A stretch of 31,537 nucleotides of DNA from the IMG/VR virus record IMGVR_UViG_3300032333_000053, positions 1-31,537 of that record. One strand, 5' to 3'. Positions 1 through 31,537 of the stretch are shown piece by piece (position 1 is the first letter of the stretch; each line of letters begins with the position of its first letter). The notes below the pieces were generated by a model, which worked only from the letters and a program-made list of their open reading frames with translations, had not been told where the DNA came from and did no database searches. The stretch comes from a virus. Both the position numbers and the translations under genes were made by a program.

Positions 1-2013
1 AAGAAGGAGGAACCTGCTACTCCTGCTCCTGCGGCTAAGCAGGAAACGCTTGACGAGAAGATTGCTAGACTTGAAAAAGAGGCTAAACTTGCCAAACTTG
101 AGAAGGAAGCCGCCGCCAGAAATCGCCCGCCCGTAACTGAAAGAGCAAAGGAGACCGTAAAGGCTGGTTATGAAAAAGCAAAAACGGGTCTTGGAAAAGC
201 CGCAGATGTTGTAAAACAAAAAACGGGTACTGCTCCTACCAGAAGTCCTATTACTGGAAGAATGGTAGAACCTCCGTCACTTTTTGAACGAGGAATTACA
301 AGTCTTGCCGATGTCGCTGGCTGGATGGCTGAAAAAGCAAAAACGGCTGTTACTGGTCAGACAATCGAGGAAGCCATTCGTGCTGGAATGACTCCAGAAC
401 AAAAAGCGTCTCAACTTGCCAGAGATGCTAAAAGAAGTTCTGCCGTTAAGCAATCTATTGCTACGCAAGCAAGAGAACAAAGACTGAATACTCCTAGCCC
501 TAATCTTAATGTCGGCCCAGAAAAACAGGTAGTTGTTAGTACTTCAAGGGGCAAGGAAGGTGTTGTACCTGCTGGTACAAACAAAAAGGCCGTTGTTATT
601 CCTCTTGAAGAAAGAGTTCAATCCTTCACTGCAAAGTTGGACAGGTTTATTAGAAATGAATCTCCGTTGCTTAACGCTAGAAATGTTGACAGGGCTACGG
701 TTCCGCAGGGTTCAATTGAAGGTGCTAAAAACAAGTTGAAAGGGTTGGTTGGCGGTGACGCTACAGCCGAAGATTTCATCGTTAAGTCCTTGAACAGGTC
801 TGGCGAGTTTAGCCCAGATGAAGTTCCTAAGATTGCCAGAAGGCTTGTAGCAGACCCCACCTTTAGGGCAACTCTTGAAGAAAGTCAGTTGTTCGATGCC
901 TACGAAAGACCTAACAACAGACTTAGCGGTGGTGCTCCTAAGCCTATCGACAGAAGAACAAGTGCAGTTAAGCCGTCTCCTGCGGCTGAGCCTACGCTCC
1001 AAGAAAGACTTGCTAGATTCCAAGAAAACAGAGTAAAGCAAACGCAAATTGATATTGAGAATGCCCGTAAGGCTCTTGCTCCTTATGGCGACCCACAGCG
1101 TGATGCAAAACTTGCTAGCCAAGCCGCTGAACAACTTGCTCCTTATGGTGGAAAGGGGCCGTCTGTTGCTACTGGCCCGCAAGCCCAGTTGGAACTTAGA
1201 AACGAAATTGAGACACGCTCCAGAGCGTTGGCGGCTAAGAGGGCTGAAACCGAAGCCGCTAGAGTGGCAACTCGTACAAGAATTGAAGGAGCCAATAACC
1301 AAGCGGAACAGGCTTTCCTTGCTAGACTTGCCAAAGAAAGAGAAGCCGTAAATCTTGCTAAGCAAGCCGAAGCCGATGCTACTTGGGATTTGAGAACTCC
1401 CAGAGAACTTGCCATGGCTGGTGCTTCTACTGGTGCTGTTGGCAACGCCCCTAGCGGTGTCACCAGAATGGACAGACTTAGAAATGTCGCTTCGCTTAAT
1501 GCGTCTACGCCAGAAGAATATGCCCTTCAAAAATGGCTACGCTCTCGTGCTCCGTTGAACAATATTTCCACAGAAGGAGGTGCTCCTCTTCGTGGTATTG
1601 TTGCTGGTCGTGCTCCTAGCAGACTTGGTGGTGTGGCTACACTTGGTGGACAGGCTTTTGGTGTCGTTCCAGACATCATGACTGGTTATGCTTTGGGTAG
1701 ACAAGGTTCTGCCATCACTAGCGAAGGCAGAGTCCTTTATCCTAGCGAAGTTGTTAATGTTGATGGAATGTCTTATCCCTTGGAAAATGTTCAAGCGATT
1801 AACTACTATCATCCTAGAAACGCTGACAAACACCCAGAAGTAACGCACAAACAGAGATATGAATTTTATCCGAATTGGTATAAGGATGAAATGGATGCCA
1901 GACAGCAGGATGTAAATGAATGGGTTCAGAGGACTGGTTATCAGTACAAGCCGATGTTTGGTAGCGAACCCATGGCTCCAGAAGTTCTTAATGCAATTAG
2001 AACAGCACAGTGA
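1..2013 (+). CDS. Ala/Lys/Glu-rich phage protein, 5'-truncated by window edge
   Basis: The reading frame is open from base 1 to the TGA at 2011-2013, so 670 residues are visible and the true start lies outside the window. The ATG at 262 is only an internal methionine: the 87 codons before it are open and have the same composition (charged helical text with repeated E-K-A words). The first 150 residues are Lys/Glu/Ala-rich and probably helical. The middle has two LAPYG words about 20 residues apart, followed by a long Arg/Ala/Glu helical stretch. A Gly-rich hydrophobic segment (LGGVATLGGQAFGVVPDIM) lies about 120 residues from the end, and the C-terminus is rich in Tyr and Trp. No enzyme family is recognised. 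It overlaps the terminase start by four bases (GTGA), so it is translationally coupled to the packaging genes. A structural or ejection protein is a guess from composition and position. Confidence 0.8.
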   Translation, partial: KKEEPATPAPAAKQETLDEKIARLEKEAKLAKLEKEAAARNRPPVTERAKETVKAGYEKAKTGLGKAADVVKQKTGTAPTRSPITGRMVEPPSLFERGITSLADVAGWMAEKAKTAVTGQTIEEAIRAGMTPEQKASQLARDAKRSSAVKQSIATQAREQRLNTPSPNLNVGPEKQVVVSTSRGKEGVVPAGTNKKAVVIPLEERVQSFTAKLDRFIRNESPLLNARNVDRATVPQGSIEGAKNKLKGLVGGDATAEDFIVKSLNRSGEFSPDEVPKIARRLVADPTFRATLEESQLFDAYERPNNRLSGGAPKPIDRRTSAVKPSPAAEPTLQERLARFQENRVKQTQIDIENARKALAPYGDPQRDAKLASQAAEQLAPYGGKGPSVATGPQAQLELRNEIETRSRALAAKRAETEAARVATRTRIEGANNQAEQAFLARLAKEREAVNLAKQAEADATWDLRTPRELAMAGASTGAVGNAPSGVTRMDRLRNVASLNASTPEEYALQKWLRSRAPLNNISTEGGAPLRGIVAGRAPSRLGGVATLGGQAFGVVPDIMTGYALGRQGSAITSEGRVLYPSEVVNVDGMSYPLENVQAINYYHPRNADKHPEVTHKQRYEFYPNWYKDEMDARQQDVNEWVQRTGYQYKPMFGSEPMAPEVLNAIRTAQ

Positions 2014-3623
2014 GTGACCCCCTTGAGTCATACAAGCCGACCCAGCATCCTGTTGTAAAACTGCCAGATGTTAAGGCACTGGTAGCAAAGTTTGGCACTG
2101 AGAAGGCCATCGAGATTCTTCAACTTAGAGAAGACAAAATCCTAGCGGAAAAACTAGACCCGTACAGACATGGCTTTGAGCCGTGGCACTGGAAGGAAGC
2201 AGACCAGATTCTGAAGGACAAACAGGAAATCTTGGTGCTTGGTGGCAACCGTGCTGGCAAAACGGAGTGGGCGGCTAAGCGTCTTATTCAGACAATGGTC
2301 AACAAGGACAAGGCTATGGTGTGGTGTCTGCATACCACGCACCAGTCCAGCATCCAGATGCAACAGAATGTTGTCTACAAGTACCTGCCACCCGAACTAA
2401 AAATTGCAAAAAAGACCAAGATTACGAATGTTTCGTATTCCCAGAAGAACGGATTCAGCGACAACACCTTTATTTTGCCGAATGGCTCCCAGTGCGTGTT
2501 CATGAACTACGCCCAGAAGAAAGATGTTATCGAAGGTGGCGAATGTGACCTAATTTGGTGTGACGAACTTGTGCCTTTGGACTGGATTGACACCCTTCGC
2601 TACCGTGTTGTGACCCGTAGAGGCAAGTTGGTCGTTACATTTACCCCCATCCAAGGTTATTCGCAGGTCGTTAAGGACTATGTGGCTGGTTGTAAGTTCA
2701 AAAAGTCGCTTAGAGCCGAACTTTTGGAAGATTCTTTGATGCATGTTAACGGTGTTCAGCGTGGTCATATGCCTTTTACGGCAGATTGCCACCGTCCGAA
2801 CGCTGGAATTGCTTGGTTTCACTCCGCTTTGAATGTTTACTCGCCTTTTGACGAGATGAAGAAGACCTTAATGGGTCGAAATAACCACGAAATTAAGATT
2901 CGTGCGTACGGATACGCTGAAAATACAGTTGGTTCTCAATTTCCCCGTTTTGGCGACAGTTCTATCGTTTCCCATGACAAAATCCCCGAGGAAGGCACGA
3001 ATTATATGGTCGTTGACCCTGCTGGAGCGAGAAACTGGTTCATGCTTTGGCTTCGTGTCACAAAAGAGGGTAAAATGTTCGTCTATCGGGAGTTTCCAGA
3101 TATGTCTCTTGGTGAATGGGCTTTGCCTTCCGACAAACCCGATGGTAAAGAAGGGGTTGCCCAAAGAAACGGTGCAGGGATGGGGTTGGATGAGATTAAG
3201 GCAACAATTCGTAGGCTGGAAGGGGAGGAAGAAATCGCAGAAAGATATATTGACCCCCGTGCTGGTGCGACTCAAGCCGTAGGCAAGGATGGCGGTACAT
3301 CATTGATGGAGTTGCTGGACGATGGTGACGACCCTATGTATTTTGCCCCTGCGGCTGGCGTTGCCATCGAGCAAGGCGTTGCCATTATTAACGACTGGTT
3401 CTCCTATGACCTTTCCCAGCCTCTAAGCCCAATCAACGAACCTAGGTTGTTCGTTTCGGACAAGTGCCAGAACCTTATTTATTGCCTAAAGGAGTGGACT
3501 GGTGCTGACGGTGAAAAGGGTGCTACAAAAGACCCTATTGACTGTTTGCGATATCTCGCTGTTATGTCGCCAGTGCACATTGGCAACGACTATACTCCCG
3601 TAGGCAAGCCATTTATCTATTAA
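2010..3623 (+). CDS. terL: Terminase large subunit (packaging ATPase/nuclease)
   Basis: 537 residues, the usual size for a phage large terminase, which docks on the portal, pumps DNA into the prohead and cuts the concatemer. The N-terminal ATPase has a Walker A motif GGNRAGKT at residues 78-85 and a Walker B motif LIWCDE at 181-186, with the catalytic Glu at its end. The C-terminal RNase H-like nuclease shows acidic residues in the expected order: YMVVDPAG (D336), ERYIDPRAG (D415) and DPIDCLRY (D508/D511). The start is a GTG overlapping the stop of the upstream gene (GTGA). No Shine-Dalgarno precedes it, so re-initiation after the upstream gene is likely. The portal gene follows after one base. 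No small terminase subunit is recognisable in the window. Function is certain from the motifs; the packaging type (cos, pac or terminal repeats) cannot be told. Confidence 0.96.
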   Translation: MSDPLESYKPTQHPVVKLPDVKALVAKFGTEKAIEILQLREDKILAEKLDPYRHGFEPWHWKEADQILKDKQEILVLGGNRAGKTEWAAKRLIQTMVNKDKAMVWCLHTTHQSSIQMQQNVVYKYLPPELKIAKKTKITNVSYSQKNGFSDNTFILPNGSQCVFMNYAQKKDVIEGGECDLIWCDELVPLDWIDTLRYRVVTRRGKLVVTFTPIQGYSQVVKDYVAGCKFKKSLRAELLEDSLMHVNGVQRGHMPFTADCHRPNAGIAWFHSALNVYSPFDEMKKTLMGRNNHEIKIRAYGYAENTVGSQFPRFGDSSIVSHDKIPEEGTNYMVVDPAGARNWFMLWLRVTKEGKMFVYREFPDMSLGEWALPSDKPDGKEGVAQRNGAGMGLDEIKATIRRLEGEEEIAERYIDPRAGATQAVGKDGGTSLMELLDDGDDPMYFAPAAGVAIEQGVAIINDWFSYDLSQPLSPINEPRLFVSDKCQNLIYCLKEWTGADGEKGATKDPIDCLRYLAVMSPVHIGNDYTPVGKPFIY

Positions 3624-3624
3624 C

Positions 3625-5811
3625 ATGAGTCTTTATAACCCTTCCATGGAATCTAACGGTGACCCGCTGGTCAATGCCAGCGACAAGCCGAATGTCTCCG
3701 CTCTTTACGATGAACTTCAGCGTTGCTTCTACCATGGAGCAAATGCGGCTGAACTTAACGCCAACGATGACCTGCGTTATTGCAGATGGGAGGGTCAGAC
3801 CATTGACGGCAGAAAGCATTCTACTGGTAAGCCCGAAGATGAACCTGCCATGCCGTTTGAAGGTGCGTCCGATGTAAGAATTAGACTTATTGACAGAGTT
3901 ATTAACGAGCAGGTCGCCATGTTGATGAACTCGCTGAAGTTGGCTAAACTTGGCGTAAGCGGAAGAACCGCTGACGATGCGGCTTATGCTTCTGGCATGA
4001 ATTCGCTTATCGGTCACTTTACCAACAGGCTTAGAAGCGAACTGCGAAGAGAAACAGAACTGTTCTGTCAGTACGGAAACCAATATGGCTGGTCTGCCAT
4101 GTATGTTGGCTGGGAACAGCAAGTTGGTCTTAGAGAGCAGAAGTTTAACATGGTCGAACTTATTGAAATGGCGACCACCGCTGACCCGAGTCAAAGCGAA
4201 CTCATTTCCGCTCTGCCCGAATACATTATTAACCCGCAGACCGAAGACATGGCTGTTGCTATTCTTACCCAGCGTCTGCTGACCATCAAGGAGAAGGAAG
4301 TCAGACGAATGGTTAAGGAACTTCGTGAGACTGGTACTGCTACCGTCTTTGAGGAGACTATCACTAAGAACCTTCCTTGCGTCACTGCCCTTAAGCCGTT
4401 TGACGAAATCAGTTTCCCTCCAGAAACCATCGAATTCCAGAAAGCCCGTGTTGTCTTTAGAAGAATGTTCATGACGGAAGTCGAACTTCGTTCTATGGAG
4501 CGTAACGATGGCTGGGATAACGATGCTATCGAAGAAGCCGTCAATACGGCTGGCAAGATGTCTTGGTATAACGACCCGAATATCGTTCCTAGAGCAAACA
4601 TGCTCGATACCTACGAATTCAGAGGAAACCACCTTATTGAGGTCTGCTATGCCTATACTCGCCAGATTAACGAAGATGGCATTCCTCACATTTACTACAC
4701 CGCCTTCTGCCCTAACGCTTCTAGGTCTTCCTACTTCAAGCACGAGAAACTTGGGTACGCCCATGGGCAGTATCCTTTCGTAATTTACCGCAGAGAGAAC
4801 ATTCGGAAGAACATTGCCGAATCTAGAGGCATCCCCGAAATCTTGATGACCGAACAGGCTGAACTTAAGGGACAGCACGACTCGATGAGAGACCGTACCG
4901 CCTTTGAGACAGTGCCTCCGATTATGGTCAAGAGACGCATCCAAGGTATTGGTCGAATTGGCCCTGCCCAACAGTTGCCTGTGTCTAGCCCCGATGACTA
5001 CAAGTTCATGGAGCCTCCGAGAGGCACTCCTAACTTGGCTCAAATGGTCATTGAGCATGTCGAGACAAATGCGGCTAGATACTTTGGTCTTACCTCTGGT
5101 ATGCAGAAGCCCGAGACTCCTGCACCGTACGCCCAGATGCTCCAGCAGGTTGCTACCGACAATTGGCTTACTACCATCTCCGAGATTTACACCCAACTGT
5201 TGCAACTTGGTCTTCAGTACCTTGCCAGCGAGGAAATCGAGAGAATCACCAACATCTCCATTCCGCAGAACATGTCGGACATCGCCAACCAGTTCGACTA
5301 TGAACTGAAGTTCGACATTCGTAATCTTTATGTCGATTTCGTGATGGAAAAACTTGCGGCTATTAACCAGTCCGTCCTGCCGATGGATGCTGGTGGTGTT
5401 ATTGACAGAAACAAACTCATTGCCATCGCTATGAACGCCATTGCTCCCGATATGGCTAAGGAAGTCATTATCGACCAAGCGACAGCCTCCCAGAAGATGT
5501 ATCGTGATGTCCAAACCGACATTGCCCTTATGATTCTGGGTAACGAGCCTCAGTATGTCGAAAACGACCCGACAGCCCAGACCAAGATGCAGTATGTGCA
5601 GGACATTATGTCCAAGAATCCTGTTGCTCAGCAGAACGCACAGGGTAACCCGACCTTCCAGATGATTTTTGAGAATTATGTCAAGAATCTGCAAATGAGC
5701 GTCAGCCAACAGCAAAACAAGCAAATTGGTCGCATTGGGGTATCCCCTCTGGCTGAAAAACTGGCTCAACAGCAAATGATGCCTTCCAACAACAATGAAG
5801 CACCTGTATAA
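3625..5811 (+). CDS. Portal protein
   Basis: 728 residues, in the range of the long portals of podoviruses. The portal forms the ring at the special capsid vertex through which DNA enters and leaves. Supporting signs are the position directly after TerL and the N-terminal motif WEGQTIDGRKH (residues 55-65) followed by PFEGASDVR (79-87 region), a pattern I know from phage portal families. A conserved-looking YFGLTSGMQKP segment lies near residue 485, then long amphipathic helices and a Gln/Asn-rich tail. The ATG at 3625 lies one base after the terminase stop and has no SD. The last 17 bases overlap the next gene. The complementary strand is open for 720 codons here; I treat that as a codon-usage artefact. 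Confidence 0.92.
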   Translation: MSLYNPSMESNGDPLVNASDKPNVSALYDELQRCFYHGANAAELNANDDLRYCRWEGQTIDGRKHSTGKPEDEPAMPFEGASDVRIRLIDRVINEQVAMLMNSLKLAKLGVSGRTADDAAYASGMNSLIGHFTNRLRSELRRETELFCQYGNQYGWSAMYVGWEQQVGLREQKFNMVELIEMATTADPSQSELISALPEYIINPQTEDMAVAILTQRLLTIKEKEVRRMVKELRETGTATVFEETITKNLPCVTALKPFDEISFPPETIEFQKARVVFRRMFMTEVELRSMERNDGWDNDAIEEAVNTAGKMSWYNDPNIVPRANMLDTYEFRGNHLIEVCYAYTRQINEDGIPHIYYTAFCPNASRSSYFKHEKLGYAHGQYPFVIYRRENIRKNIAESRGIPEILMTEQAELKGQHDSMRDRTAFETVPPIMVKRRIQGIGRIGPAQQLPVSSPDDYKFMEPPRGTPNLAQMVIEHVETNAARYFGLTSGMQKPETPAPYAQMLQQVATDNWLTTISEIYTQLLQLGLQYLASEEIERITNISIPQNMSDIANQFDYELKFDIRNLYVDFVMEKLAAINQSVLPMDAGGVIDRNKLIAIAMNAIAPDMAKEVIIDQATASQKMYRDVQTDIALMILGNEPQYVENDPTAQTKMQYVQDIMSKNPVAQQNAQGNPTFQMIFENYVKNLQMSVSQQQNKQIGRIGVSPLAEKLAQQQMMPSNNNEAPV

Positions 5812-6061: not shown

Positions 6062-6149
6062 AAACAGTTGACAGATGTAAAACGATTGTAAAAGTAACTT
6101 TGTTTTCCTTGTTTTCTCAAAACATTGTAAAGTCCAAGCAGACTTGAGA
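6057..6149 (+). promoter_or_regulatory. Putative promoter/regulatory gap with four TGTAAA repeats
   Basis: This is the longest non-coding gap in the rightward unit, directly before the scaffold and capsid genes. It is AT-rich and carries TGTAAAA at 6057, 6076 and 6087 and TGTAAAG at 6126. TTGACA occurs at 6068-6073, but no good TATAAT follows at 16-18 bases. TAACTTTG at 6095-6102 matches the Bacteroidetes -7 consensus TAnnTTTG, though the gap to the nearest upstream TTG (24 bases) is slightly long. A tiny GTTTT-CTC-AAAAC hairpin lies at 6111-6123. A promoter raising capsid expression is plausible; which sigma factor reads it is open. Confidence 0.4.
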
Positions 6150-7148
6150 ATGCTTAATAATCTCATGAACCCAGAAGAAGAAAACAGCGATAACGACAAC
6201 GCTGAGTCGCAAGACGAAAATGTCGTAAACGAGGGTATCGGCTCTCTTACAACGGAACGCCTAACGGATATTCTCCGAAGGGACTTTGACCCCACCGAAC
6301 AAGGTCAGACGGACACTGCCGAGTCCGAGAGTAATCAAGCAGAAGACTATGAAGGGGACGGTGAGCAAAACGCCACCGAAACTGAAAATAGCGAAGAGGT
6401 TCATTCACAGGACGAAGAAGAAACGGAGGACAGGGGTCTTTCTAAGGGCGTTAAGAAGCGAATTGATAAACTGGTGTCGAAGCGTAGGGAAGCCGAAGCC
6501 GAGATTGCCAAACTCAAAGAAGAACTTGAAGCCACTAGAAATCAGAAGACAGCCCCCGAACCGATTGTTTCCATCAAGGATAATCCTTACAGCCACATTA
6601 ACAGCGTTGCAGAAATCGAGAGCGAAGTCTCTCAGGCACGGTCTGTTCGTAGATGGTGCGAGGAACATTCTGAAGGTTACACGGCTACGGATGCTGAAGG
6701 CAATGAAACCTACTACTCTGCCGAAGAGGTTAAGCAAATCAAGTTAAACGCTATTGACGCACTTGAAGAGCACCTCCCTAAGCGGATGCAGTATGTCAGA
6801 GCCAAAGATAACTTTGAAAACCTTGCCGAAAAGGAATATGGTATTGTTTGGAAGAAGGACGCAGATTCTCGTGAGAAGCAAATTGCTTACCAGTTTCTGA
6901 AGGCTTTCCCCGAAATCACCAGATTCCCCGACTACAAGATGGTTATTGGTGACTACATCGCTGGCGTTAAAGCCCGTGAAAGCAAAGGCTCCAAGACTGT
7001 TGCGAAGGCTCCGCATAATCCTAGACCGAGTGGGTCGGCTCCTAAAGCCAACAGTGCAGACAGCAGACTGAAGGCATCCGAACAACGCTTCAAGAGCAAT
7101 TCTTCTAGCGAAGACCTCAAGGAAATCCTGCTTAAAAAGTTCCTATAA
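6150..7148 (+). CDS. Scaffolding protein (putative)
   Basis: 332 residues from the ATG at 6150. An in-frame TTG lies two codons upstream and a further ATG at 6165, so the exact start is uncertain; none has an SD. The first third is very acidic (runs of Glu, Asp, Asn, Ser). A Lys/Glu/Leu coiled-coil stretch with words such as AEIAKLKEELEATRNQ follows. The C-terminal part is helical and ends in a basic, Ser-rich tail. Acidic start, central coiled coil, basic C-terminal end and location between portal and major capsid protein are the usual signature of a phage scaffold, which directs capsid assembly and then leaves or is cleaved. No protease motif is visible. The assignment rests on position and composition. 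Confidence 0.8.
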   Translation: MLNNLMNPEEENSDNDNAESQDENVVNEGIGSLTTERLTDILRRDFDPTEQGQTDTAESESNQAEDYEGDGEQNATETENSEEVHSQDEEETEDRGLSKGVKKRIDKLVSKRREAEAEIAKLKEELEATRNQKTAPEPIVSIKDNPYSHINSVAEIESEVSQARSVRRWCEEHSEGYTATDAEGNETYYSAEEVKQIKLNAIDALEEHLPKRMQYVRAKDNFENLAEKEYGIVWKKDADSREKQIAYQFLKAFPEITRFPDYKMVIGDYIAGVKARESKGSKTVAKAPHNPRPSGSAPKANSADSRLKASEQRFKSNSSSEDLKEILLKKFL

Positions 7149-7156
7149 TTACGCAT

Positions 7157-8257
7157 ATGCCTATTCTTACAGAACCGAAAATTACTTCTGGTAAGCGAGA
7201 AGACCTCGCTGACCTTATCGCTATGGTTGATGCCCGTGACACGCCTTTCTCCTCGATGGCGAAGAAGGGTAGCAAGCCCGGAAATACGCACTTCCGCTGG
7301 CAGGTTGACCAGTTGCCTACCACCAAGACTGGTGGTGTTATCGATGGCACTGATGTTGACCCTGTCGCTGATGTGGAAAACTATGTCAAGGACACCGTTG
7401 GTGGTGTGACGAAGCAGTACCGCTACGAACTGGGTATGCACCCGCAGATGTTCCGTAGAACTGTCCGAGTCTCCCCGATGGCTCTCGACCTCACTAACAT
7501 CGCTGGTGTCAAGGATGAACTGGCTAACAATGTCGCTAAGGCCGTCAAGATGCTGAAGCGTGACATTGAAGTCACTCTCTGCGGCTCGCAGGGTGCTCAG
7601 CAGGACACTGGTGTTGGTGGCGTTCCGTTCCTTACCCGTGGTCTCGATAAGTATCTCGCTGTTCGTGGTGCTACCTCTGCCAACATTCTTGGTGGTGGTT
7701 CTGCTGACCCGACCAACTATGGTACTGTCGCCCAAGACTCGTATCTGGCTGTCCCGACCGACTTCCAGATGCCCAAGGAGCAGTTCCTCTATGGCACGGT
7801 TGCTAACGACCTCAACGAAGAGAACATTCAGAACCTTCTGACTGGTCTGTACGAACAGACTGGTACTTCCAAGGAATATGACGCTCTTCTTGGTACTCGT
7901 TGCAAGCGTGGCTTCACGAACCTCGTCTTCACGACTGGCTCGTCTGGCTCGACTGAAACCCGTAACTCCGTCCGCACCTTCAACCGTGATGCCGCTGACT
8001 CGACTTACACCTCTACGGTGCAGGTCTTTGAAGGCGACTTCGGCAGACTGAAGTTGCACTCCTCGACTTGGCTGAAGAACAAGTTCGTTGGCTATGTGAT
8101 TCCGTTCGACATGGTGGAAGTCCGCTATGGTGGGCAGGTCGCACAGGTCAGAGAACTCCCCGACTTCGGTGGTGGCCCTGCTCGTACGGTTGAAGCGGTT
8201 CTTGGTCTCGTTGTCCATAACCCGCTGGCCTTCGGTAAACTCGACTTCACTGCCTAA
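7157..8257 (+). CDS. Major capsid protein, SU10/DUF5309 type (HK97 fold)
   Basis: 366 residues. The N-terminal part, REDLADLIAMVDARDTPF (14-31) followed by FRWQVDQLP (46-54), is the hallmark start of the SU10-like (DUF5309) major capsid family. Later come the typical helix rich in Glu/Leu/Lys (ELANNVAKAVKMLKRDIE) and a beta-rich second half. The protein would form the icosahedral shell. Codon use differs from neighbouring genes: many more C-ending codons (CTC, GTC, ATC, TCC, TAC), as expected for the most abundant virion protein. The ATG lies eight bases after the scaffold stop without an SD. There is no fused protease or Ig domain. Confidence 0.93.
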   Translation: MPILTEPKITSGKREDLADLIAMVDARDTPFSSMAKKGSKPGNTHFRWQVDQLPTTKTGGVIDGTDVDPVADVENYVKDTVGGVTKQYRYELGMHPQMFRRTVRVSPMALDLTNIAGVKDELANNVAKAVKMLKRDIEVTLCGSQGAQQDTGVGGVPFLTRGLDKYLAVRGATSANILGGGSADPTNYGTVAQDSYLAVPTDFQMPKEQFLYGTVANDLNEENIQNLLTGLYEQTGTSKEYDALLGTRCKRGFTNLVFTTGSSGSTETRNSVRTFNRDAADSTYTSTVQVFEGDFGRLKLHSSTWLKNKFVGYVIPFDMVEVRYGGQVAQVRELPDFGGGPARTVEAVLGLVVHNPLAFGKLDFTA

Positions 8258-8260
8258 ATA

Positions 8261-10910: not shown

Positions 10911-10922
10911 CTTTTCCATGAA

Positions 10923-12785: not shown

Positions 12786-12786
12786 A

Positions 12787-22700: not shown

Positions 22701-25700
22701 TCTACGGACGGCATCAAGGTCTCCAACCTTGAGATGGAGAAGGCCATCAGAGACATGCGAGCCAGATTTGGCGACGGACAACTTGACCAACTTAGTGATG
22801 ACCAAATTATTGAATTGGCAAAAGATAATAAGGCTGGCGTTGCTACTGAAACAGTTAAAGAAGGAAGAAGAATTGGAGAAGATAAACAAACAAACATTTA
22901 TCTTACTGGTGAGGCTAGAACCATTAGACGCTGGGCGGCTTTTGAAGAGCGTAAGGATAACACCTACGAAGAGACCGACTCTAGAGTTGTTTATGTAGAA
23001 AAGAAACCGAAGTACATCTTGGCTAAGGGCGTTAAGTCGGACAAGATGATGGTCATCCCAGTATCCGAAACTACTTTTGACAAAAAGAAGGGTACTTTCT
23101 ACTGGTCTCGTGACAGACAACTTAACGAAAAGACCAAGGCTAGAAGTTATTCAAACATCGAATCGTGGTTGGGCGAGGAAGGGACAGTGTTTAAGTCTGT
23201 TCGTGATTTGACCCTTGGTGATACCTCCGATGTCTATGCGGCTTACAAGCCCAACGGCTGGCATATTGACGGCAAGTACTTCAAGACACAGGACGAAGCC
23301 AAGCGTCTTGCCGTTATCGATGCCGAAAACAACCATGCCTACGAAGCCGTCTACAAGACTGCCAAGCGTCTGGACAAGGATGCCTATGTCACGGTGCTTC
23401 AGATGATTCAGAACAGCACTGGGATTACATACCAGAACGCTATCAAGGAAGCCATTGGTTTCAAGGGTACACGAAAGAAGTGGATTGATAATCCCGACTA
23501 CAACCCGAACAAGCCTTGGTCTTTGCAGTTCAACCCCCGCAAGATTCAAGTGAAGGAAGACTTCACTGGTGCTACAGTTCCTTCCGAGTTCAAGAAACTC
23601 GCCATCTATAGAGCGGGCAATCTGTTGCTCGTTACTTCTGACAACAGAAAGGATGTACTTACCAGACTCACTGCCGAGGCTAAGGTCTCCGTCAAGGGTG
23701 GCAGAACCAAGAACATTGAAGCCATTGCCCGTGAGGCTATTGGCGAGCGTGAAAGAGGCAAGAAGGTGCTGGGCGACCTGTACAGAATCGTTAAGGACGA
23801 GAACGGTCAGATGGCTGGCATCGATTGGATTACCCATTACGACAACCCGAGACAGGTGTCTGAAATGATTACCAAGATGGACGACCAGTCCTATGTAGAC
23901 CTAGATACCACCGTTGACTTCCAGCGTAGGCTTACGAAGGAAATTAAGCCTGTCCTTGCCAAGGCTTTCAAGGAAGAGAAGAAGAAGATTTACACGGTGC
24001 TTACTGAGAACCCTAAGAAGATTCGGGAAATCAGAAGCAGACTTATTTCCATCGAAGAGGCTCACGAAAAAGCCGTAGAGGACACTGGTATTATTATCAA
24101 AAAGGGACTGAAGCCCTCTGCCAAGAGAGACTTCATTAACAGAAACATTGATAGGCTTAACCGCCAGACCAATGAACTTACTGACACCATTGAAAGAAGA
24201 TTGCACTACATCTTCACGATGGGCTTCCACAGAAGACCAGAAGTTGCTGAACGACTTGTTGGTGAAGGCAAGTACTTTGAGGACAAGACCAGCGTTGAAA
24301 ACTACTACGAGGAAATCCTTGAAGATAGAAGACAGCAGAGATTCATCAGAGACGACAACGGTAATGTTCTGACCGAATACCCAGAACTGGATGCTCTTGC
24401 TACCAAGAAGAAGTTGGAAGACAGCCTTGGTGAAATCGAGAAGTCTTGGTCTGACATGATGCCGAAGAACAGGGCTACCGCTTTGCTTGAGGATGTGCTC
24501 AACGGTACATACAACGAAGAGCATGAACTCCTTACTAAGCAGATGGACTTCCTTAAGAGACAGTTGTCCATGGCGGCTGGTGGCACTGAAAAAGTTAAGG
24601 CTGGTCTTACTGGTGCGATGATTGGCAAGAAGGCTGGTGCTGGAAGATGGATTGGCCCGAAGGAACAGGCGGCTGAAGAGGCTAGACTTGCCAGAATTGA
24701 AGCAAACATTCCCAAGAAGTCTGAAGATGTAGCCCTTGGCACAGTCGAAAAACTCCTTGAGGGTACGCAGGGTCTTAGCGACAAGAAGGTTGAACGCTTC
24801 CCGACATACCTTCCTCCCGAAGGCGAATCGTTTGTGTCTGCCAGAGACTACTTGGATAGGTTCCAGCGGTTGGTTAGCGACATCGCTGAAGCACACAAGA
24901 AGTTTGGCGACCCTGCCTCTCTGGATAAACTAGACCTCCAGAAGATTCTGGACACCGATGCTGACCTGTTGCCCACCAAGGAGGTGGATGCCCATGTCGC
25001 TAGACAGGAGTCCCTTGATGCGATGAAGGACAACATCCGTAACATCGAGGAATACTTTGACCTTAGCACACAGCCGCAGGAAGGTAAGGACTTCAAGTCT
25101 TCCGTAGACATTTGGAGCCTTGCTGAGCGTCAGTGGATGAACGAAATCAGCGAGAACAGAATCAATGCGGCTGTCCGTGCCGCCTTGGAAGGTAGACAAG
25201 ACCATGTCATCCTTGCCAACAGGGCTAACCAGAGAATCAAGACCCACTACGAGGGTGTCATTAAGGCTAGAATGGCTGTCATCGATGCCAACTTCGCTAA
25301 ACTTTCCCCAGAACTAAAGCCGATTTACATCAAGTACTTGGAGAGAATCCGTGACGGTCTGGCTGTAGAGCGAGCGTCTGAACTGGAGCGTGTACAGGCA
25401 GAGATTGCCACCATCAACGAAACCGCTGGCGAGTATGCACTGACACCAGACAATCCTAAGATGGCTCAACTGCTGGCTAAGTGGCAGGAGTTGGGAATGA
25501 AGGGTGACCCTATGACGATGTACTCCTCCAAGGAGGAAAGCGTCCGTAGAATGTTCCCGTTCCTGTTCTCTGAATTCTATCCTAGCAGACAGGACATCGC
25601 TACCTCCTCTTCCTATACCAAGTGGGAGTCCAGAGCCACGGACGAAAGAGTTACCTCTGAGACTACCAGCACTGGCACTAGACAGGGTATGAATGTCGGT

Positions 25701-27725
25701 GGCTTCACGACAACCAACCCGATTGTTGCTGAAGTTATTCGCAACGAGCAGACGAGAAACAAGTTCCTTAGCATGCGTGGTCTTCGTGAGATTGACCTGT
25801 TTGCCGCCGCCCTCGCCAAGAAGAATGCTGTTGAAACGCAGGTTAACAATGGTGGTAAGGACGCTGTTGTACAGATTGATGCCGAAGGTTACGCCCTCCT
25901 TGAACGGTACTTCCCCGAACTTACAGAAGGCAAGGAAGGCCCAGATGGTAAGCCTGTCTGGAAGATTAACTTTAAGATTAACAAGGAGGCTGGCTACGAG
26001 GATTCGTTTAGCACCGCTGGATACGCCAAGCGTGTGCGTGAAGAGAAGAAGGTCGGGGAGATTGCCCTACAGGGCGGTCTCATTGACAAGGCTTTCAACT
26101 ACTTCTTGGACGAGGTGACCATGAACCAGTCTCACATCGAGCATGCCGTTGCCAGACTCAGTGGCAAGGAGCGACTGGCTGAACTCACAGCCCCAGAGAA
26201 CCTTGCCCCCAACGGCAAGATTGACATTAGAAAACTCAATGTCGAAGAACTCGACTTTGCTTTCCACCTGCTTGGCAAGGCTAAGATTACAAACGAGAAG
26301 GCACACATGTCGGTCATCGAACTGACGAGCAACCCGCTGTATGCCAAGAGCATGATTCTTGCTTTCTCTAGAGGCAAGGATGGCAACCTACAGTCTATGT
26401 TTGGTGACGATGTCCAGAAGTCTGCTACCTTCCTTGCGATGAACCTTGGCGAAAAGAAGAAGTTCGTTGACGAAATCGTTAGACAGATTGAATTCTCCAA
26501 GGACAAGATTGAATCTGAAAAGGCTAAGCAGAATAAGGAGACACTTGATGCTTCTATCTCTACGGCTTGGAAGGTTAAGGAACTGGAGAAGATTTCCAAG
26601 GAGCAGTTGGATGCCGCCAAGCACCTGTTGCTTGAGTTGGCTAAGACCGACTCTGCGGTCAAGGCGTACAAGGGTAAGGTGGAACAGTTCTGGTCTAGCA
26701 GACCGCAAGCCAGAACGAATATCCTTAGCATTGATGACTCGCTGAAGTTGCTTTCTCCCAACATGGAGTATGGCAAGGCTGTCATTGGTGCTGACGGCAA
26801 GACCGTTGATGTGCCCGTTGCCAACCCCAACGATGCCCTGTTCAGAACAGCCAACGGCATGTTCCACGCCTTCAAGCAGGGTGGTTCGTACAGACTGTTC
26901 TTCTCTGGTTACAAGTCTGCTGACGGCAAGGTAAACATTGCCCCGTCCCACATCATGACGGCTCCCGACCTACAGAGGTTGCAGGTTGGCATTAGAATGT
27001 TCCATGACGATGTGAAGCGTGTGGAGGTCATGGCTAAAGCCGCTCCCGATAGCCTTGAACTTAAGGGTGCTGAAGTTGCCTCGTTCTCTGGGTCGTTCTT
27101 TGAGACGCACGGTGGCTCCATTGCTCCCGACCTGCTGAAGGCTCTGCAAGTTAACCTTGCCCAGATTGGCAACTACCCCGACACGACATGGCTGGTCACG
27201 CCAGAGAGCGGTAACAAGAGACAGATTGTTATCTATCCTAATACCGCCACATGGGACAGGCTTCATAACAGCGGAGAGTACATCAAGAAGGATGGCTCGT
27301 GGTACAAAGACCCTGCGGTGCAAGCCGCCCAAGAGCGTCTTGACCGTGCCCGTCTGGAACTAGAAAGCCAGCAGATTGCCGATGTCACTACTGCTGAACC
27401 GAAGCCCAGCGAAATCATTACTGAAACTGCCAATGTATCTAAGCACGACCAGCCCGATGCAAAGGACAAGAGAGCCGAAGGCATCGACAATAAGGTGGTC
27501 ATGCAGGTCATCGAAGAGGGCGACATCTATAATGGCACTAGCGTTGAACCTGCCATGCAGGATTGGACTGCCCTTAGAAACAGAGACGGATGGGTAGTCA
27601 TGCGAGAGCAGAGCCGTGATGCCAAGGGCTGGAAGACTAGGTTCAAGACCTTCTTCCCCAGCGGTGTGCTTGCTGGCATCGATGAAAACGAGGAGGACGC
27701 TGTGTCCAGAATGTTCAATGAGTGA
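16755..27725 (+). CDS. Giant polyvalent virion-associated protein, 3656 aa
   Basis: One uninterrupted frame of 10,971 bases. Parts visible: residues about 229-354 and 402-444 are Gly/Ala-rich and hydrophobic and could insert into a membrane. Residues 555-670 resemble a zincin-like protease segment, with GELFH at 566-570 (the first His of HExxH is replaced by Gly) and EEYAEAYF at 658-665. Residues 838-898 form a Lys/Glu/Arg helix. Residues about 1220-1320 resemble the ADP-ribosyltransferase-like domain of large polyvalent phage proteins but lack its YHGT word. Long charged coiled-coil regions and small W/F-containing alpha/beta segments fill the rest. No RNA polymerase signature of the N4 virion enzyme (TxxGR, HDS) was found. 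Size and place after the ejection proteins suggest a protein injected with the DNA; this is inference. It overlaps both neighbours and has no SD. Confidence 0.88.
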   Translation: MNKSFYYDNAESLEKIRQDMAFLDSVKDPLKNPYTLSAKQEAPQEEDVLTKGEREAYLISNYAKGGYVPTYDGYLAYETWKKQNETSAWGTIWDAGKHAVSTVAGGIYDTVTSGDILNPLTVGGTVIEGAGRGTRYFVNMLDQIKYDPTNPIHRALFRQGTPEERYADFQKGLEFQRETGEIEKAGYWVPKKEWDVQGWKIRTFNESGVAAAEMVLDPSILMPNLKIGSLLGKTALGSAITKSAARVAVKGANLAERAAMRIEGGAGKVAGTAMGIFEYPANKASEFFGIETLTTSNGKVIAKDSIIRGSGVAIGAGAYLAQIPFAAPVAGVWLGAKVTEIAGKTIAEALGHAKTPSYLTIADRLAYQSTDPAVRAIGGMAMRTNGFIDFATQGVKSTFHGSMYGGAFGFALGGEEGFYSGVGTGIGLAGSFHMLGGAYGIVGNRKERQIANAQKHFAYVAEGFDEAKRYGVNRLLQNIEDVYGQEKMFRTMANIAAAERLNKNGKNLILTTEQIQSILGDSPDWAEYQKLMKDPQFGGYTTRRASNGEIVTIINADYAAHSAVSGELFHSALLQRYGQGMKEHIVKSLLGTADSDGFLYKLSPETRIKMLEDFKRAYLELDDTSGGGAQRAMLDSFNEAIEQVRRGEKPETLYPIFEEYAEAYFNRWVEDKPIDYLLRGSNPFEAVFDGAKKMVRNLIERDIEQVGGRMQFKSGEPEGFFLDGNGKRVVVPELDKVMRLLVREMKKDPDALEGFPIRDNVNQHHVMLKDAEYLFTRDESGKLVRKNDEQMEMEWSKGITGLMNAHAKLKPEERGLRFTQRVLSAVEEDVEGAFAPKSKKATELEKEAKRLEKIAKQRQAKLLREAARAAKLSDKEQRKLAREEEANLDAEVEHLREQSEYEGIVEYKIEGYMTDAEINLFAEHLPKAVVQRMAAFNRVIHNKGSDGNNVLRFDYESETSQNFSYTKEGSPTGAGNEKNSGRVKTRDVVPYEMILKFERKRLTKSLRAKYGIDDADAKYAAIKPVLLVNGIDMKALDRRVRYAYNHMRRQNATSSISSATVKMYYESEEEIHHDIKRLLGNYSLGDIAMAGADFFGGGSEGRAKRDIINAIIGARPVRISPEKMQKKGYHYPLDLQRPMTGPKSRYEGGPLNEAFMAFTSFRVDRMLDRPKHLHGEGFYYDHDYAHPMNKGNFQPRSKALRDHVGRPLSYSERQLQDETIFKSPSGEPYRVFASNKEGGVHYAWFDETRAVDNHSQHTEGYISLRNNEVLDMLNDGKIDSVRDLNADFMRKVADMGYKAVVARTNDGDRVVAFTDFNNFKQTDVSAFDQLLGNFAPKSRSIAEITRERLGLTGATPATPEAGKPMSLAERTKARLGTTQTPVEILAERTFGVPKAEPIKIDVATDIVVGTPERQMSPEQMAKVQKSLAMRKSLLAERGLQGEIRKEILTNRRKFAEAMAKTKEFKGWHSTEIFDSMYTSIWGENATISITKGGKVSLGVIQSLSPKEYGAYRRNGVLPADIKQRTIADIDMALMENWKRRHLLQQSLAKTKANVKIAFEERRKQEAKYSAELDAIRNELIQMLASYKMFDVADEVLGAEMGKKRVAQTYRKEVTPEVAGWTPAKKIDVQNSHDAFVQSKDRVFSYKTLKALYPLLGRTDPITAMDVLSMASPEMKDIRKEMSTSALKHVIDEFNQYNLVEHRKWLTEKQSTLKQYAKEKEKLDNDIKVAESTSKKYDTSEARARSNELASKIRELEKSQDPIIEEWNMQDYKEEMVHELLQLEPDERAASIEDYRKQFDIAGRTDEWPEAEQLLIKSGILPPEKMSKEYGRIVEVNDAEKRVLGGVSENYKDAMDEAYRVLQQSMKKDKTITPLQRFAVMMQSVARHYKKNPALREKMKQLESLFKETEQLTDFNLKRAYKKMLDYGFVSMNWDGNEKKVVLDATGHYVERVSPPKKEIGMDFGKLRMPKGWAMKQERVVLTSTDGIKVSNLEMEKAIRDMRARFGDGQLDQLSDDQIIELAKDNKAGVATETVKEGRRIGEDKQTNIYLTGEARTIRRWAAFEERKDNTYEETDSRVVYVEKKPKYILAKGVKSDKMMVIPVSETTFDKKKGTFYWSRDRQLNEKTKARSYSNIESWLGEEGTVFKSVRDLTLGDTSDVYAAYKPNGWHIDGKYFKTQDEAKRLAVIDAENNHAYEAVYKTAKRLDKDAYVTVLQMIQNSTGITYQNAIKEAIGFKGTRKKWIDNPDYNPNKPWSLQFNPRKIQVKEDFTGATVPSEFKKLAIYRAGNLLLVTSDNRKDVLTRLTAEAKVSVKGGRTKNIEAIAREAIGERERGKKVLGDLYRIVKDENGQMAGIDWITHYDNPRQVSEMITKMDDQSYVDLDTTVDFQRRLTKEIKPVLAKAFKEEKKKIYTVLTENPKKIREIRSRLISIEEAHEKAVEDTGIIIKKGLKPSAKRDFINRNIDRLNRQTNELTDTIERRLHYIFTMGFHRRPEVAERLVGEGKYFEDKTSVENYYEEILEDRRQQRFIRDDNGNVLTEYPELDALATKKKLEDSLGEIEKSWSDMMPKNRATALLEDVLNGTYNEEHELLTKQMDFLKRQLSMAAGGTEKVKAGLTGAMIGKKAGAGRWIGPKEQAAEEARLARIEANIPKKSEDVALGTVEKLLEGTQGLSDKKVERFPTYLPPEGESFVSARDYLDRFQRLVSDIAEAHKKFGDPASLDKLDLQKILDTDADLLPTKEVDAHVARQESLDAMKDNIRNIEEYFDLSTQPQEGKDFKSSVDIWSLAERQWMNEISENRINAAVRAALEGRQDHVILANRANQRIKTHYEGVIKARMAVIDANFAKLSPELKPIYIKYLERIRDGLAVERASELERVQAEIATINETAGEYALTPDNPKMAQLLAKWQELGMKGDPMTMYSSKEESVRRMFPFLFSEFYPSRQDIATSSSYTKWESRATDERVTSETTSTGTRQGMNVGGFTTTNPIVAEVIRNEQTRNKFLSMRGLREIDLFAAALAKKNAVETQVNNGGKDAVVQIDAEGYALLERYFPELTEGKEGPDGKPVWKINFKINKEAGYEDSFSTAGYAKRVREEKKVGEIALQGGLIDKAFNYFLDEVTMNQSHIEHAVARLSGKERLAELTAPENLAPNGKIDIRKLNVEELDFAFHLLGKAKITNEKAHMSVIELTSNPLYAKSMILAFSRGKDGNLQSMFGDDVQKSATFLAMNLGEKKKFVDEIVRQIEFSKDKIESEKAKQNKETLDASISTAWKVKELEKISKEQLDAAKHLLLELAKTDSAVKAYKGKVEQFWSSRPQARTNILSIDDSLKLLSPNMEYGKAVIGADGKTVDVPVANPNDALFRTANGMFHAFKQGGSYRLFFSGYKSADGKVNIAPSHIMTAPDLQRLQVGIRMFHDDVKRVEVMAKAAPDSLELKGAEVASFSGSFFETHGGSIAPDLLKALQVNLAQIGNYPDTTWLVTPESGNKRQIVIYPNTATWDRLHNSGEYIKKDGSWYKDPAVQAAQERLDRARLELESQQIADVTTAEPKPSEIITETANVSKHDQPDAKDKRAEGIDNKVVMQVIEEGDIYNGTSVEPAMQDWTALRNRDGWVVMREQSRDAKGWKTRFKTFFPSGVLAGIDENEEDAVSRMFNE

Positions 27726-28020
27726 CCGTTCCCTACAGGAAGTAGCCGCAGAGTTCATCAAGGGTGGATGGATTGTAGCCATCCTTGGTGCTCTTGGGGC
27801 GGCGGCTAGGCTTATGCTGTCCCCGCAGAAGCACCACTGGGTGGTGTGGGCTAAGAAGATTACGGCTGGCGGTATCGTGGGGGTGCTTACCTACTTTGCC
27901 CTGTACCCCATTGACATTGACCCAATGTACAAGGCGGTCATGTTCAGTATCAGCGGGGCGTTGGCTCCAGAACTATTTGAGTTTGCGACCACTAAATTAA
28001 TTTCTAAATTTCTAAAGTAA
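27718..28020 (+). CDS. Holin, LydA-like
   Basis: 100 residues with three likely membrane segments (about 16-34, 48-64 and 70-88) separated by short charged turns (SPQKHH; DIDP) and a basic C-terminal tail. The pattern GGWIVAILGALGAAARLML ... GGIVGVLTYFALY ... SISGALAPEL is that of the LydA/phage_holin_3 type. A holin opens the inner membrane at the end of infection. The ATG lies within the last codons of the giant gene (overlap of eight bases); I prefer it to an upstream in-frame ATG at 27616, which would add 34 non-hydrophobic residues inside the giant gene. Its stop overlaps the next start (TAATG). Confidence 0.82.
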   Translation: MSDRSLQEVAAEFIKGGWIVAILGALGAAARLMLSPQKHHWVVWAKKITAGGIVGVLTYFALYPIDIDPMYKAVMFSISGALAPELFEFATTKLISKFLK

Positions 28021-29318
28021 TGGAAGAGGAAAATCTGAATGCAGATACAAGTGCAACAACGCTTGCATTGAGTAAATTCCTGTCGATGCCAAGACAGGAC
28101 TATCACTTTTATCAGAACCACAATTTCACTTCACCCGCAGAAGCCGAAAAATTTTTAATTTCAAAAGGGTTTTTAGACTTTTGGAACAGAGATAAAGTAT
28201 CTACAGATGGAATCGGATATAGAGTTAAGACTGGCTGGAATTCCCTAGACAGTGCCCAGCAAGAACATACGCCCCATAAAAGAAGAGACTATAAGGCTCT
28301 CATTGAAAAGAGACAGGCAACTGTAGACAGAGCAAAATCCAAGTTCCAACCTAATCCTTACAGTCAAAGACCTAGAATGCTTAACGGTCAGCCTGTTCTT
28401 GGTGCTGATGGAAGACCGCTTTTTGATGTCGTTCCAGACGCTGAACAAATCAGAAATTATGGCAGGACAATGGATAGAGGCGTTACGCAACTTAAGAATC
28501 TATCAAGAATTGAAAACAGATTTCACACTCCATACAGCAGTGTAATAAGACACCTAGGAGATGAAGATAAGGGCTTAAGTGCTTACTTGGCATTTTCTCA
28601 AGCCTTTCAGAGCAGTGGTCATAGCGGTGCTGGCGAAGGAAGACTACCAATAAGGGTTCTTTTTAACGAGAAACTTCCTAATTACTCTTTGGCTGGATAC
28701 CAACCCTTTGACGGAAACTACCCCAACTTGTCCGTCCAGAAAGCCATGGAATCTATTGATGCTACTGGAGGAAAAGCACACATGAGATATGGTACTAGAC
28801 TTGGTGCTACTGTTAGTAGCAGTCCAACCAATGAAGCCTTTGTGCCAGCAGGAATGGCGGCAACAGCAAGAAGAGTTGGAAATGTCATGCCAGATGGAAG
28901 CATTCGTGTCGTTGGCCCTGCGTCTAAAGCGGCTAACGCATTAAGATTTGCAAACAATGTTGGGGCGGCGGCTAAACCTGTAATGGGTGTGTTAAATGCT
29001 GTGGCAGTACCTCTTCAACTTTACCAACAGTATGACTCGCTTCAAAGTCCAGACGCTATGGAAAGAGATTACGGTGGTTCAGACCCAATGAGTCTTAGAC
29101 CTTGGATGGATTTGGCTGGAGATGCTACAGGCATTGGTGGCACTAACTTAACGCAAGCACTGCAAAGATATAGTAGAACAGTAAACGACCCTCGTTACAT
29201 TGAAAAGAATCCTATTAGTAGCATTGGTGGACAGGCTATTCGTGGTAACTTTGATTATCTTAAAGGATTTTTAAACAACCTTGGATACTATGGCAGTGGT
29301 GAAGGCTGGTTTAAATGA
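28020..29318 (+). CDS. Unknown phage protein, 432 aa, AT-rich
   Basis: Not recognised. The N-terminal part is charged and aromatic (RQDYHFYQNHNF; FLDFWNRDKV). A Pro/Asn/Arg-rich stretch follows near residue 110. The second half is Gly/Ala/Asn-rich with a mildly hydrophobic segment (KPVMGVLNAVAVPLQLYQQYD). There is no signal peptide and no catalytic motif of lysozymes or amidases. Codon use is clearly more AT-rich (AAA, AGA, CAA, GGA) than in the giant gene or the spanin-like gene beside it, and is closer to the truncated gene at the left end. It sits between the holin and the spanin-like gene, where an endolysin would be expected, but a virion role is equally possible. Confidence 0.72.
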   Translation: MEEENLNADTSATTLALSKFLSMPRQDYHFYQNHNFTSPAEAEKFLISKGFLDFWNRDKVSTDGIGYRVKTGWNSLDSAQQEHTPHKRRDYKALIEKRQATVDRAKSKFQPNPYSQRPRMLNGQPVLGADGRPLFDVVPDAEQIRNYGRTMDRGVTQLKNLSRIENRFHTPYSSVIRHLGDEDKGLSAYLAFSQAFQSSGHSGAGEGRLPIRVLFNEKLPNYSLAGYQPFDGNYPNLSVQKAMESIDATGGKAHMRYGTRLGATVSSSPTNEAFVPAGMAATARRVGNVMPDGSIRVVGPASKAANALRFANNVGAAAKPVMGVLNAVAVPLQLYQQYDSLQSPDAMERDYGGSDPMSLRPWMDLAGDATGIGGTNLTQALQRYSRTVNDPRYIEKNPISSIGGQAIRGNFDYLKGFLNNLGYYGSGEGWFK

Positions 29319-30067: not shown

Positions 30068-30164
30068 GGCTAATGCGGGTGGCGTTGGTTGTTGTGCGTT
30101 TGTGGGATTAGCCCTCTTGAAGTGTACTTGCCCCTACGACTAACCCGCTAGTAGAGGCAAGTAC
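30066..30164. terminator. Two tandem hairpins between convergent genes
   Basis: The 112-base gap between the converging units has two inverted repeats. The first pairs GGCTAAT (30068-30074) with ATTAGCC (30107-30113) and extends to GAG/CTC past one bulged C, with a 32-base G/T-rich loop. The second is stronger: GTACTTGCC (30124-30132) with GGCAAGTAC (30156-30164), one C-A mismatch, then CTAC/GTAG, and a 13-base loop. Neither is followed by a T-run on either strand, so they are not textbook intrinsic terminators. Position between convergent genes still makes a two-way stop or RNA-stabilising role likely. Confidence 0.5.
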
Positions 30165-30179
30165 CACTATTCCCACCAC

Positions 30180-30518: not shown

Positions 30519-30750
30519 AGTAATGAAGGACAGGGTAGGTTCGTTTGCCAGTGGAGATGGTGAAGTACTTAGTATCGATTTTCTCTGGGTTTCTTTCGTG
30601 TGCCCTGTTTAGCATTCTTTGGGTATGCTGTAGGGTTCTTCTTCTTTGCTTTGCGAACTCTTTTGCGGTCATCCACCCGCTTGGCACTTCGTCCACAGCC
30701 GCATTTCTTACCATTCTTTCCAGAGCGTCCAACTGTTTCTTGGTCATCAT
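30505..30750 (-). CDS. Small HTH-like protein, 81 aa
   Basis: A short basic protein. Residues about 25-50 (GWMTAKEFAKQRRRTLQHTQ then RML) look like a helix-turn-helix of the winged type, in which T-x-x-E-F-A starts helix two. The C-terminal part (TISTGKRTYPVLHYYV) could be the two wing strands ending in Tyr-Tyr. It might regulate transcription or bind DNA in the early region. The start is ATG-ATG overlapping the stop of the phosphoesterase gene (30747-30750). The HTH reading is a pattern judgement and should be treated as tentative. Confidence 0.62.
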   Translation of the reverse strand: MMTKKQLDALERMVRNAAVDEVPSGWMTAKEFAKQRRRTLQHTQRMLNRAHERNPEKIDTKYFTISTGKRTYPVLHYYVKA

Positions 30751-31487
30751 AGGTCAGCGTGTGAAAAGATGAATCGCTTTCCGACTTTGTGTGCTTGCCA
30801 GACTTTCCAGTTATTTCCTTGTACAAAGCCATATAGCCAGCCGCTACCCCATCGGCTTGTTGCAAGTCGGTGTTTCGCATAGCCCATGTCTCCCTTGCGG
30901 CACAGACATCCTCCAGAGAAACCCACTGCCCCTCCGTGCTTCCTAGCACATACTTGTTCGATTCTGTGAATGTGCCCCATGAGGACTGCACCTTTGGGTT
31001 CACAATAGTGTCTGGCATGCTCTTCGACTGCGTACGGCCCACAGGTAAAGCCATGACAGGTTTTGATTGGCCCCATGGTATGAATGCCTTCATCAGCGTG
31101 GTAATCGTAGATTTTACGGCAACCATTGCTTTTAAGATGGTTCCGAATGTCGGAATCCAACTGCATGCAGTAGTCTTGTTTGAGTCCGTTTGAGGAACTT
31201 TCGATGATTTGGCTGAGTCTGTCTTCATGGTTTCCATAGTGAAATACCGTAGGCTTGTATCTGGAGATGAAGTCCATTCCCGCCCGCACATCGGACGCAA
31301 GGGACTCGTTCTCCTCTTTGCCAGAAGCACCCCGTCTTAGGCTTCGGAAGTCAAAGCAGTCACCAAGATGGATACGCTCTTGGGGCTGGAATTCTTTGAT
31401 GAACTTGAACAGTTCGTTGGCTACGGACTTGTCAATCATGTCACCGTGGTTGTCCCCCACAGCGACAAACTTAATACGCTTGCTCAC
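30747..31487 (-). CDS. Calcineurin-like metallophosphoesterase
   Basis: 246 residues with the full set of metal-binding motifs in order: GDNHG (D12, H14), HLGDCFD (D43), YGNHEDR (N86, H87), CHG (H145) and MGHIH (H172, H174). These hold a two-metal centre that hydrolyses phosphate mono- or diesters; the substrate cannot be read from sequence. Length is typical for single-domain phage members of the family. Eight Cys, unusually many, lie mainly in the second half. The start is GTG at 31487-31485, overlapping the stop of the preceding leftward gene (GTGA). An AAGGGAGG stretch six bases upstream could act as an SD, but it is also the coding text for the previous gene's last residues. It leads a three-gene leftward operon, perhaps of the early/metabolic class. 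Confidence 0.93.
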   Translation of the reverse strand: MSKRIKFVAVGDNHGDMIDKSVANELFKFIKEFQPQERIHLGDCFDFRSLRRGASGKEENESLASDVRAGMDFISRYKPTVFHYGNHEDRLSQIIESSSNGLKQDYCMQLDSDIRNHLKSNGCRKIYDYHADEGIHTMGPIKTCHGFTCGPYAVEEHARHYCEPKGAVLMGHIHRIEQVCARKHGGAVGFSGGCLCRKGDMGYAKHRLATSRWGSGWLYGFVQGNNWKVWQAHKVGKRFIFSHADL

Positions 31488-31537
31488 GGTTGGCCTCCCT
31501 TCAGCCGCTCGACCTCGGCCTTAAGGCGGGCGTAGTC
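31484..31537 (-). CDS. C-terminal end of a leftward gene, cut by window edge
   Basis: The last 17 codons and the TGA of a leftward gene enter from the right edge. They read DYARLKAEVERLKGGQP, a short coiled-coil-like end with leucines about seven residues apart. The stop overlaps the GTG of the phosphoesterase gene (GTGA), the same coupling seen at the terminase start. The frame is open to the window edge. Nothing can be said about function. Confidence 0.65.
   Translation of the reverse strand, partial: DYARLKAEVERLKGGQP

Follow-up and report, generated by a model that had tools for sequence, protein, structure and literature searches.

Elimination of at least 15 restriction-like words and near loss of the Pro-Gly pair in an uncultured SU10-type tailed phage

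The stretch of DNA analysed here, called the window below, is a lone viral contig of 31,537 bases from the IMG/VR record IMGVR_UViG_3300032333_000053 (G000 in our series; its relatives are cited by their G and L numbers), and we describe the short restriction-like words that are missing from it, together with the consequences of their removal for the encoded proteins. The window is a 31.5-kb piece of a roughly 45-kb genome of an SU10-type tailed phage, its longer relatives measuring 44-46 kb. On the forward strand it encodes the terminase large subunit (2010..3623; Terminase_6N, phrog_2), the portal protein (3625..5811), the scaffolding protein (6144..7148; phrog_8865), the major capsid protein (7157..8257; SU10_MCP, phrog_1328), a giant protein of 3,656 residues (16755..27725) and a holin-like protein (27616..28020; phrog_6384); a collar fibre is also encoded. 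The capsid protein matches PF17236 with an E value of 5.4e-36 and, as judged from this predicted protein, the phage is of the SU10/phiEco32 type. The giant open reading frame is of unknown family, with no Pfam or PHROG match; its counterpart in the longer relatives has 2,500-3,700 residues. The relatives of 44-46 kb have in addition genes for an ERF annealing protein, an exonuclease, an O-like initiator, a DnaC-like loader and RusA.

Over the whole window (1..31537), GATC, ACGT, AGCT and GCGC do not occur even once and about 11 further restriction-like words are almost gone. The initial annotation had noticed GATC, proposing that this word is completely absent and that Ile and Asp codons are chosen to avoid it. 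An exact count indeed gave no GATC in the 31,537 bases, against 86 expected from a maximal-order Markov model. We also shuffled synonymous codons within each gene, which keeps the proteins and the codon usage of each gene; in such conditions, 200 shuffles gave a mean of 93.9 GATC with a range of 74-116. The codon context agrees with the proposal: when the preceding codon ends in G, Ile is written ATT in 90 cases, ATA in one and ATC in none, whereas ATC is frequent when that codon ends in A (58), C (97) or T (47). Similarly, Asp before C is always GAC (90 cases, for no GAT), while GAT is found 128 times before G. The strong and sustained counter-selection on GATC that had been suggested is thus well supported by the protein-preserving null, by the persistence of the absence in synonymously diverged relatives and by the same absence in relatives from many different IMG/VR records.

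GATC is however only one of at least 15 eliminated words, the others having been missed by this first reading. Compared with the codon-shuffled null, AGCT (0 vs 152 expected), ACGT (0 vs 98) and GCGC (0 vs 56) are absent and CCGG (1 vs 73) and CGCG (1 vs 41) are reduced to one copy. Among longer words, the counts were 0 vs 40 for CCWGG, 0 vs 34 for GGWCC, 1 vs 62 for GCWGC, 6 vs 118 for CGNCG, 0 vs 34 for YGGCCR, 0 vs 29 for GGYRCC and 0 vs 33 for GRCGYC; YTCGAR also belongs to the eliminated words, as do TCAGG (1 vs 32) and CCTGA (0 vs 36), which taken jointly give 1/67. A greedy search, in which words containing an already accepted word are discounted, retained 15 independent words at P<1e-6. 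Most of them are Type II-like palindromes, removed on both strands and almost wholly by synonymous codons; in total, the window lacks about 31 expected sites per kb, i.e. approximately one removed site per 32 bases. For instance, the first codon of 60 out of 61 Ala-Ala pairs is GCG or GCC, GCT being the commonest Ala codon elsewhere. Several of these words are known enzyme specificities: GATC is recognized by MboI, AGCT by AluI, GCGC by HhaI, CCGG by HpaII, CCWGG by EcoRII, GGWCC by AvaII and CGWCG by Hpy99I.

The avoidance concerns certain words and not all palindromes. CATG, GTAC, CTAG and TGCA are near normal, which excludes a general palindrome avoidance, and TCGA is only mildly low (97 vs 128 expected). 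GCWGC is gone though GCSGC is in excess (64 vs 41 expected), so the specificity is sharp at the level of the word. We considered a general avoidance of palindromes, a depletion of CpG and a bias in codon usage as causes; the unaffected words and the codon shuffles ruled them out.

The elimination has a cost in proteins. Since CCWGG and CCGG together amount to all CCNGG, the pair Pro-Gly (CCN GGN) is left without any allowed coding. We observed that the called proteins of the window contain a single Pro-Gly for 30.8 expected, which ranks it last among 282 dipeptides, and that G001-G006, G009 and G012 have 1-3 for 21-47 expected. Pro-Gly is normal where CCWGG (G007, 33/42) or CCGG (G008, 53/54) is kept, and also in the outgroup (38/37.5). 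In G009 and G012, which are also without GGNCC, Gly-Pro is absent (0/33 and 0/30). The same was found in isolated cyanophages: Anabaena phage A-4L (GGNCC 0/69, Gly-Pro 0/36.6) and Nostoc phage N1 (GGNCC 0/40, Gly-Pro 0/25.5), both with normal Pro-Gly, and Microcystis phage Mic1 (GGNCC 1/75, Gly-Pro 1/37.2). As a low CCNGG count logically entails a low Pro-Gly count, the correlation across phages is partly built in; the informative point is that the amino acids gave way, and not the sites.

The last remaining sites follow the same logic. The sole CCNGG of the window is CCC GGA at 7277..7282 (forward strand), which encodes Pro41-Gly42 of the capsid protein, the sole Pro-Gly of the called proteins. 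This pair persists in most of the lineage, as CCCGG or CCTGG depending on the phage; loci from which CCNGG is eliminated usually have no copy of this word besides the one on this pair, or a single additional one. In some clades the glycine of the pair is replaced. A second pinned Pro-Gly, which gives the other residual CCNGG, is found in the portal protein of sister clades; in the window, Pro447 of the portal is followed by Ala, where the sister clades have Gly. Inside genes, the residual GCWGC and CGSCG all lie on Ala-Ala-Ala (in the giant gene, GCTGC at 17385 and CGCCG at 18242 and 25805), a peptide that cannot be coded without some eliminated word, so that the sites there are forced. Two more CGSCG lie on Ala-Ala-Ala runs on the forward strand, at 14837..14841, with no site-free coding possible, and at 28966..28970. 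In five genomes taken together, the protein imposes 30 of the 50 residual sites, compared with 141 of 1,866 in the shuffles (Fisher P ~3e-20). The giant gene also has two unforced residual sites, CGACG at 22772 and the sole CGCG at 19708; the latter lies on Lys-Thr-Arg-Asp and is also found in the close relative G001. The sole TCAGG, at 6632 in the scaffold gene, lies on V-S-Q-A-R and is unforced as well; G003 and G004 have the same site, which may be a conserved nucleotide signal.

We then compared the relatives, for which a capsid-protein tree was built and whose GC content spans 43-57%. All loci with a capsid at least 52% identical to that of the window contain no GATC or almost none (no more than 2 in a fetched locus and 6 in a contig), and these relatives are drawn from many different IMG/VR records. 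In the outgroup (L038-L042 and G017; capsid about 39% identical) GATC is not depleted; G017 has no depleted word of 4 or 5 bases and 4.1 removed sites per kb. The other words vary: CATG and GGCC are nearly gone in G009, GGCC in G012 and GTAC in G010 and G011; G008 (57% GC) lacks AATT, ATAT, TATA and CTAG and keeps CCGG and GGCC, and G007 keeps AGCT, CCWGG and GCWGC. Even L013 and L017, with capsids 94% identical, differ in ACGT, CATG and GGCC, hence the set turns over quickly. Some asymmetric words were also seen: in G008 (L067-L068), the 22 absent words include GAAGAC, CTCTTC and GAGACC, which resemble Type IIS targets, and ACGGG/CCCGT is eliminated in G003 (L054-L056; 0/39) and G012 (L078-L079; 1/25). 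ACGGG/CCCGT and CCTGA/TCAGG, the latter eliminated in the clade of the window, are candidate targets of asymmetric restriction.

Purifying selection against the sites is still operating. The window and G001 share 8,150 codons, of which 1,622 show synonymous differences; under neutral replacement, these differences would give about 138 sites for the 13 words counted, and 11 are present, eight of which are CGNCG. As an internal control, GGWCC, which is not eliminated in G003, was seen 7 times there for a neutral expectation of 7.6. In relatives with 20-41% of synonymous codons changed, 6-8 new GATC would be expected by drift and the word is still missing.

The methyltransferase searches covered linear, possibly incomplete records. 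PF01555 and PF02086 had no match in 19 records including the window, nor had PF00145 in the 18 relative records; with the tested families not found, a shield by phage-encoded methylation was rejected. Separately, a protein of one relative matches ArdA.

Our best explanation, with a probability of about 0.87, is that numerous Type II restriction enzymes in the host population exert a sustained counter-selection. This explanation relies on the symmetric, Type II-like nature of the words, the exactness of their elimination, the purifying selection, the lack of the tested methyltransferases and the clade-specific turnover. The initial annotation had suggested one or several hosts with a GATC-cutting enzyme; the counter-selection stands, but this proposal is too narrow, since the elimination of at least 15 restriction-like words implies a battery of enzymes, which we infer from the identity and context of the words. 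A tailed phage without a methyltransferase of the tested families would thus survive among bacteria rich in restriction-modification (R-M) systems by offering no cuttable site. The words have been purged nearly exclusively through synonymous codons, and this purging continues. In positions that synonymous codons cannot free of a site, it is the protein that changes, Pro-Gly being nearly gone and Gly-Pro gone in the relatives that lack GGNCC, and the remaining sites mostly lie on peptides without site-free codons, namely Ala-Ala-Ala and one conserved capsid Pro-Gly. The selecting agents would be the restriction endonucleases from one or more hosts rich in R-M systems; the avoided set may depend on the current hosts, leading to turnover between close relatives, and a phage exposed to hosts whose R-M combinations differ would benefit from the complete removal of many words. 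It is likely that restriction can in this manner edit the language of viral proteins: many systems acting at once would have deleted Pro-Gly (Gly-Pro in sisters), the last sites being pinned by essential dipeptides of the capsid and portal, with the same rule in isolated cyanophages.

Several points weigh against this explanation. The eliminated CCTGA/TCAGG (1/67) is asymmetric and we know of no enzyme for it; the statistics are less secure for CGSCG, of which five copies remain, and for the weaker six-base words. The window is a fragment, and a methyltransferase in its missing third is excluded only through the relatives. Neither a host nor a restriction enzyme was found by genome, plasmid or spacer searches: the plasmid search gave no match, and aligning the capsid to the contigs of the genome collection did not reveal any close phage relative, the only hit, 30% identical, being on a short contig of a metagenome-assembled genome of Verrucomicrobia. 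When the first 20 kb of the window were searched in 388 Verrucomicrobiota genomes, no convincing spacer was obtained, only short matches at chance level, with no CRISPR (clustered regularly interspaced short palindromic repeats) repeats around the 8 loci checked.

Another type of sequence-specific defence might exert the pressure, such as avoidance of CRISPR protospacer-adjacent motifs, phosphorothioate-linked (Dnd/Ssp), bacteriophage exclusion (BREX)-type or methylation-dependent systems. The asymmetry of CCTGA/TCAGG, as in targets of BREX or of Type III/IIS enzymes, fits this possibility, and the absence of GATC in haloviruses has been linked to the methylation-dependent Mrr (PMC7230728). 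We nevertheless find it unlikely: the eliminated words are for the most part symmetric, 4-6 bases long and of Type II specificity, avoidance of protospacer-adjacent motifs would not yield a dozen palindromes and, in a large survey, the sites found to be eliminated were nearly all orthodox Type II ones (PMC6286503). A mutational process or compositional bias, by CpG loss or general palindrome avoidance, appears very improbable. Several eliminated words do contain CpG (ACGT, GCGC, CCGG, CGCG, CGNCG), but AGCT, GATC, CCWGG, GGWCC and GCWGC do not; moreover, the near-normal palindromes, the only mildly low TCGA, the exactness seen with GCWGC and GCSGC, the different word sets of close relatives and the loss of amino-acid pairs only where a site is forced all argue against it. 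That sequencing, assembly or a library artefact took out the words is hardly credible. All the evidence for the lineage does come from metagenome contigs; however, flanking codons are adjusted, the proteins are intact and conserved, the relatives come from many IMG/VR sample identifiers with clade-specific sets, and the counts are normal in outgroup contigs from this collection.

Our best explanation would also be compatible with a bloom-forming cyanobacterium such as Microcystis as host, an identification that we regard as doubtful. The list of Mic1 overlaps that of the window, with GATC (4/119), CGCG, CCWGG, GGWCC, GCWGC, YGGCCR, GGYRCC, GRCGYC, TTCGAA and CCTNAGG eliminated or nearly so, and bloom-forming cyanobacteria are about the richest in R-M systems per genome (PMC8262939). 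On the other hand, Mic1 has not eliminated ACGT, AGCT or CCGG, no word is eliminated in Microcystis phage LMM01, no genes common to the window and known cyanophages were found, no cyanophage marker gene is among the matches listed (25 of 37 Pfam families of the relatives), and the GC range of the relatives argues against such a host. Bloom-forming cyanobacteria are thus a host candidate, not more.

Site avoidance is usually viewed as silent, synonymous and directed at one or a few enzymes; here it concerns at least 15 words and its cost is visible in the proteins. The list of eliminated words can be read as a fingerprint of the restriction repertoire in the hosts of an uncultured phage, and its turnover between close relatives as a record of changes of host or enzyme. 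It also gives testable predictions, on which phages are without Pro-Gly or Gly-Pro and on last sites lying on indispensable peptides.

In double-stranded DNA phages, site avoidance is a recognised anti-restriction strategy, with near-complete elimination of orthodox Type II sites; in a survey of nearly 4,000 viruses, eliminated (site, phage) pairs were 3.9% of the data set (PMC6286503). In comparison with this survey, one phage here eliminates at least 15 words at once and loses an amino-acid pair. In a literature search of partial coverage, we did not find any description of dipeptides being lost through restriction. Isolated phages whose cyanobacterial hosts are rich in restriction systems have the same kind of avoidance profile: like the window, A-4L, N1 and Mic1 eliminate several words (GGCC, GGWCC, GGYRCC, GRCGYC), and GATC is eliminated in A-4L and nearly so in Mic1, although no genes common to these phages and the window were found. 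They have fewer words at P<1e-6 (11, 2 and 8, respectively, vs 15) and only 1-13 removed sites per kb, vs about 31 in the window. By the same procedure, the rates were 13.1 for A-4L, 11.9 for T7, 5.1 for Mic1 and 0 for LMM01 (first 50 kb of each of the last two). In A-4L (L089), the asymmetric AATC/GATT was also absent from coding sequence (0 vs 222 expected). Escherichia phage T7 resembles the window in that GATC and CCWGG are nearly eliminated and Pro-Gly is reduced (7/29.6), but differs from it with 10 words and 12 removed sites per kb. In the haloviruses of the HF1 group, GATC and CTAG are wholly absent across the group and AGCT in one of them, which was termed a remarkable purifying selection by several host defences (PMC7230728). 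The known strategy (PMC6286503), noted at 2-3 absent tetramers in these haloviruses (PMC7230728), is pushed much further in the window, with four tetramers at zero, two at one copy and nine longer words.

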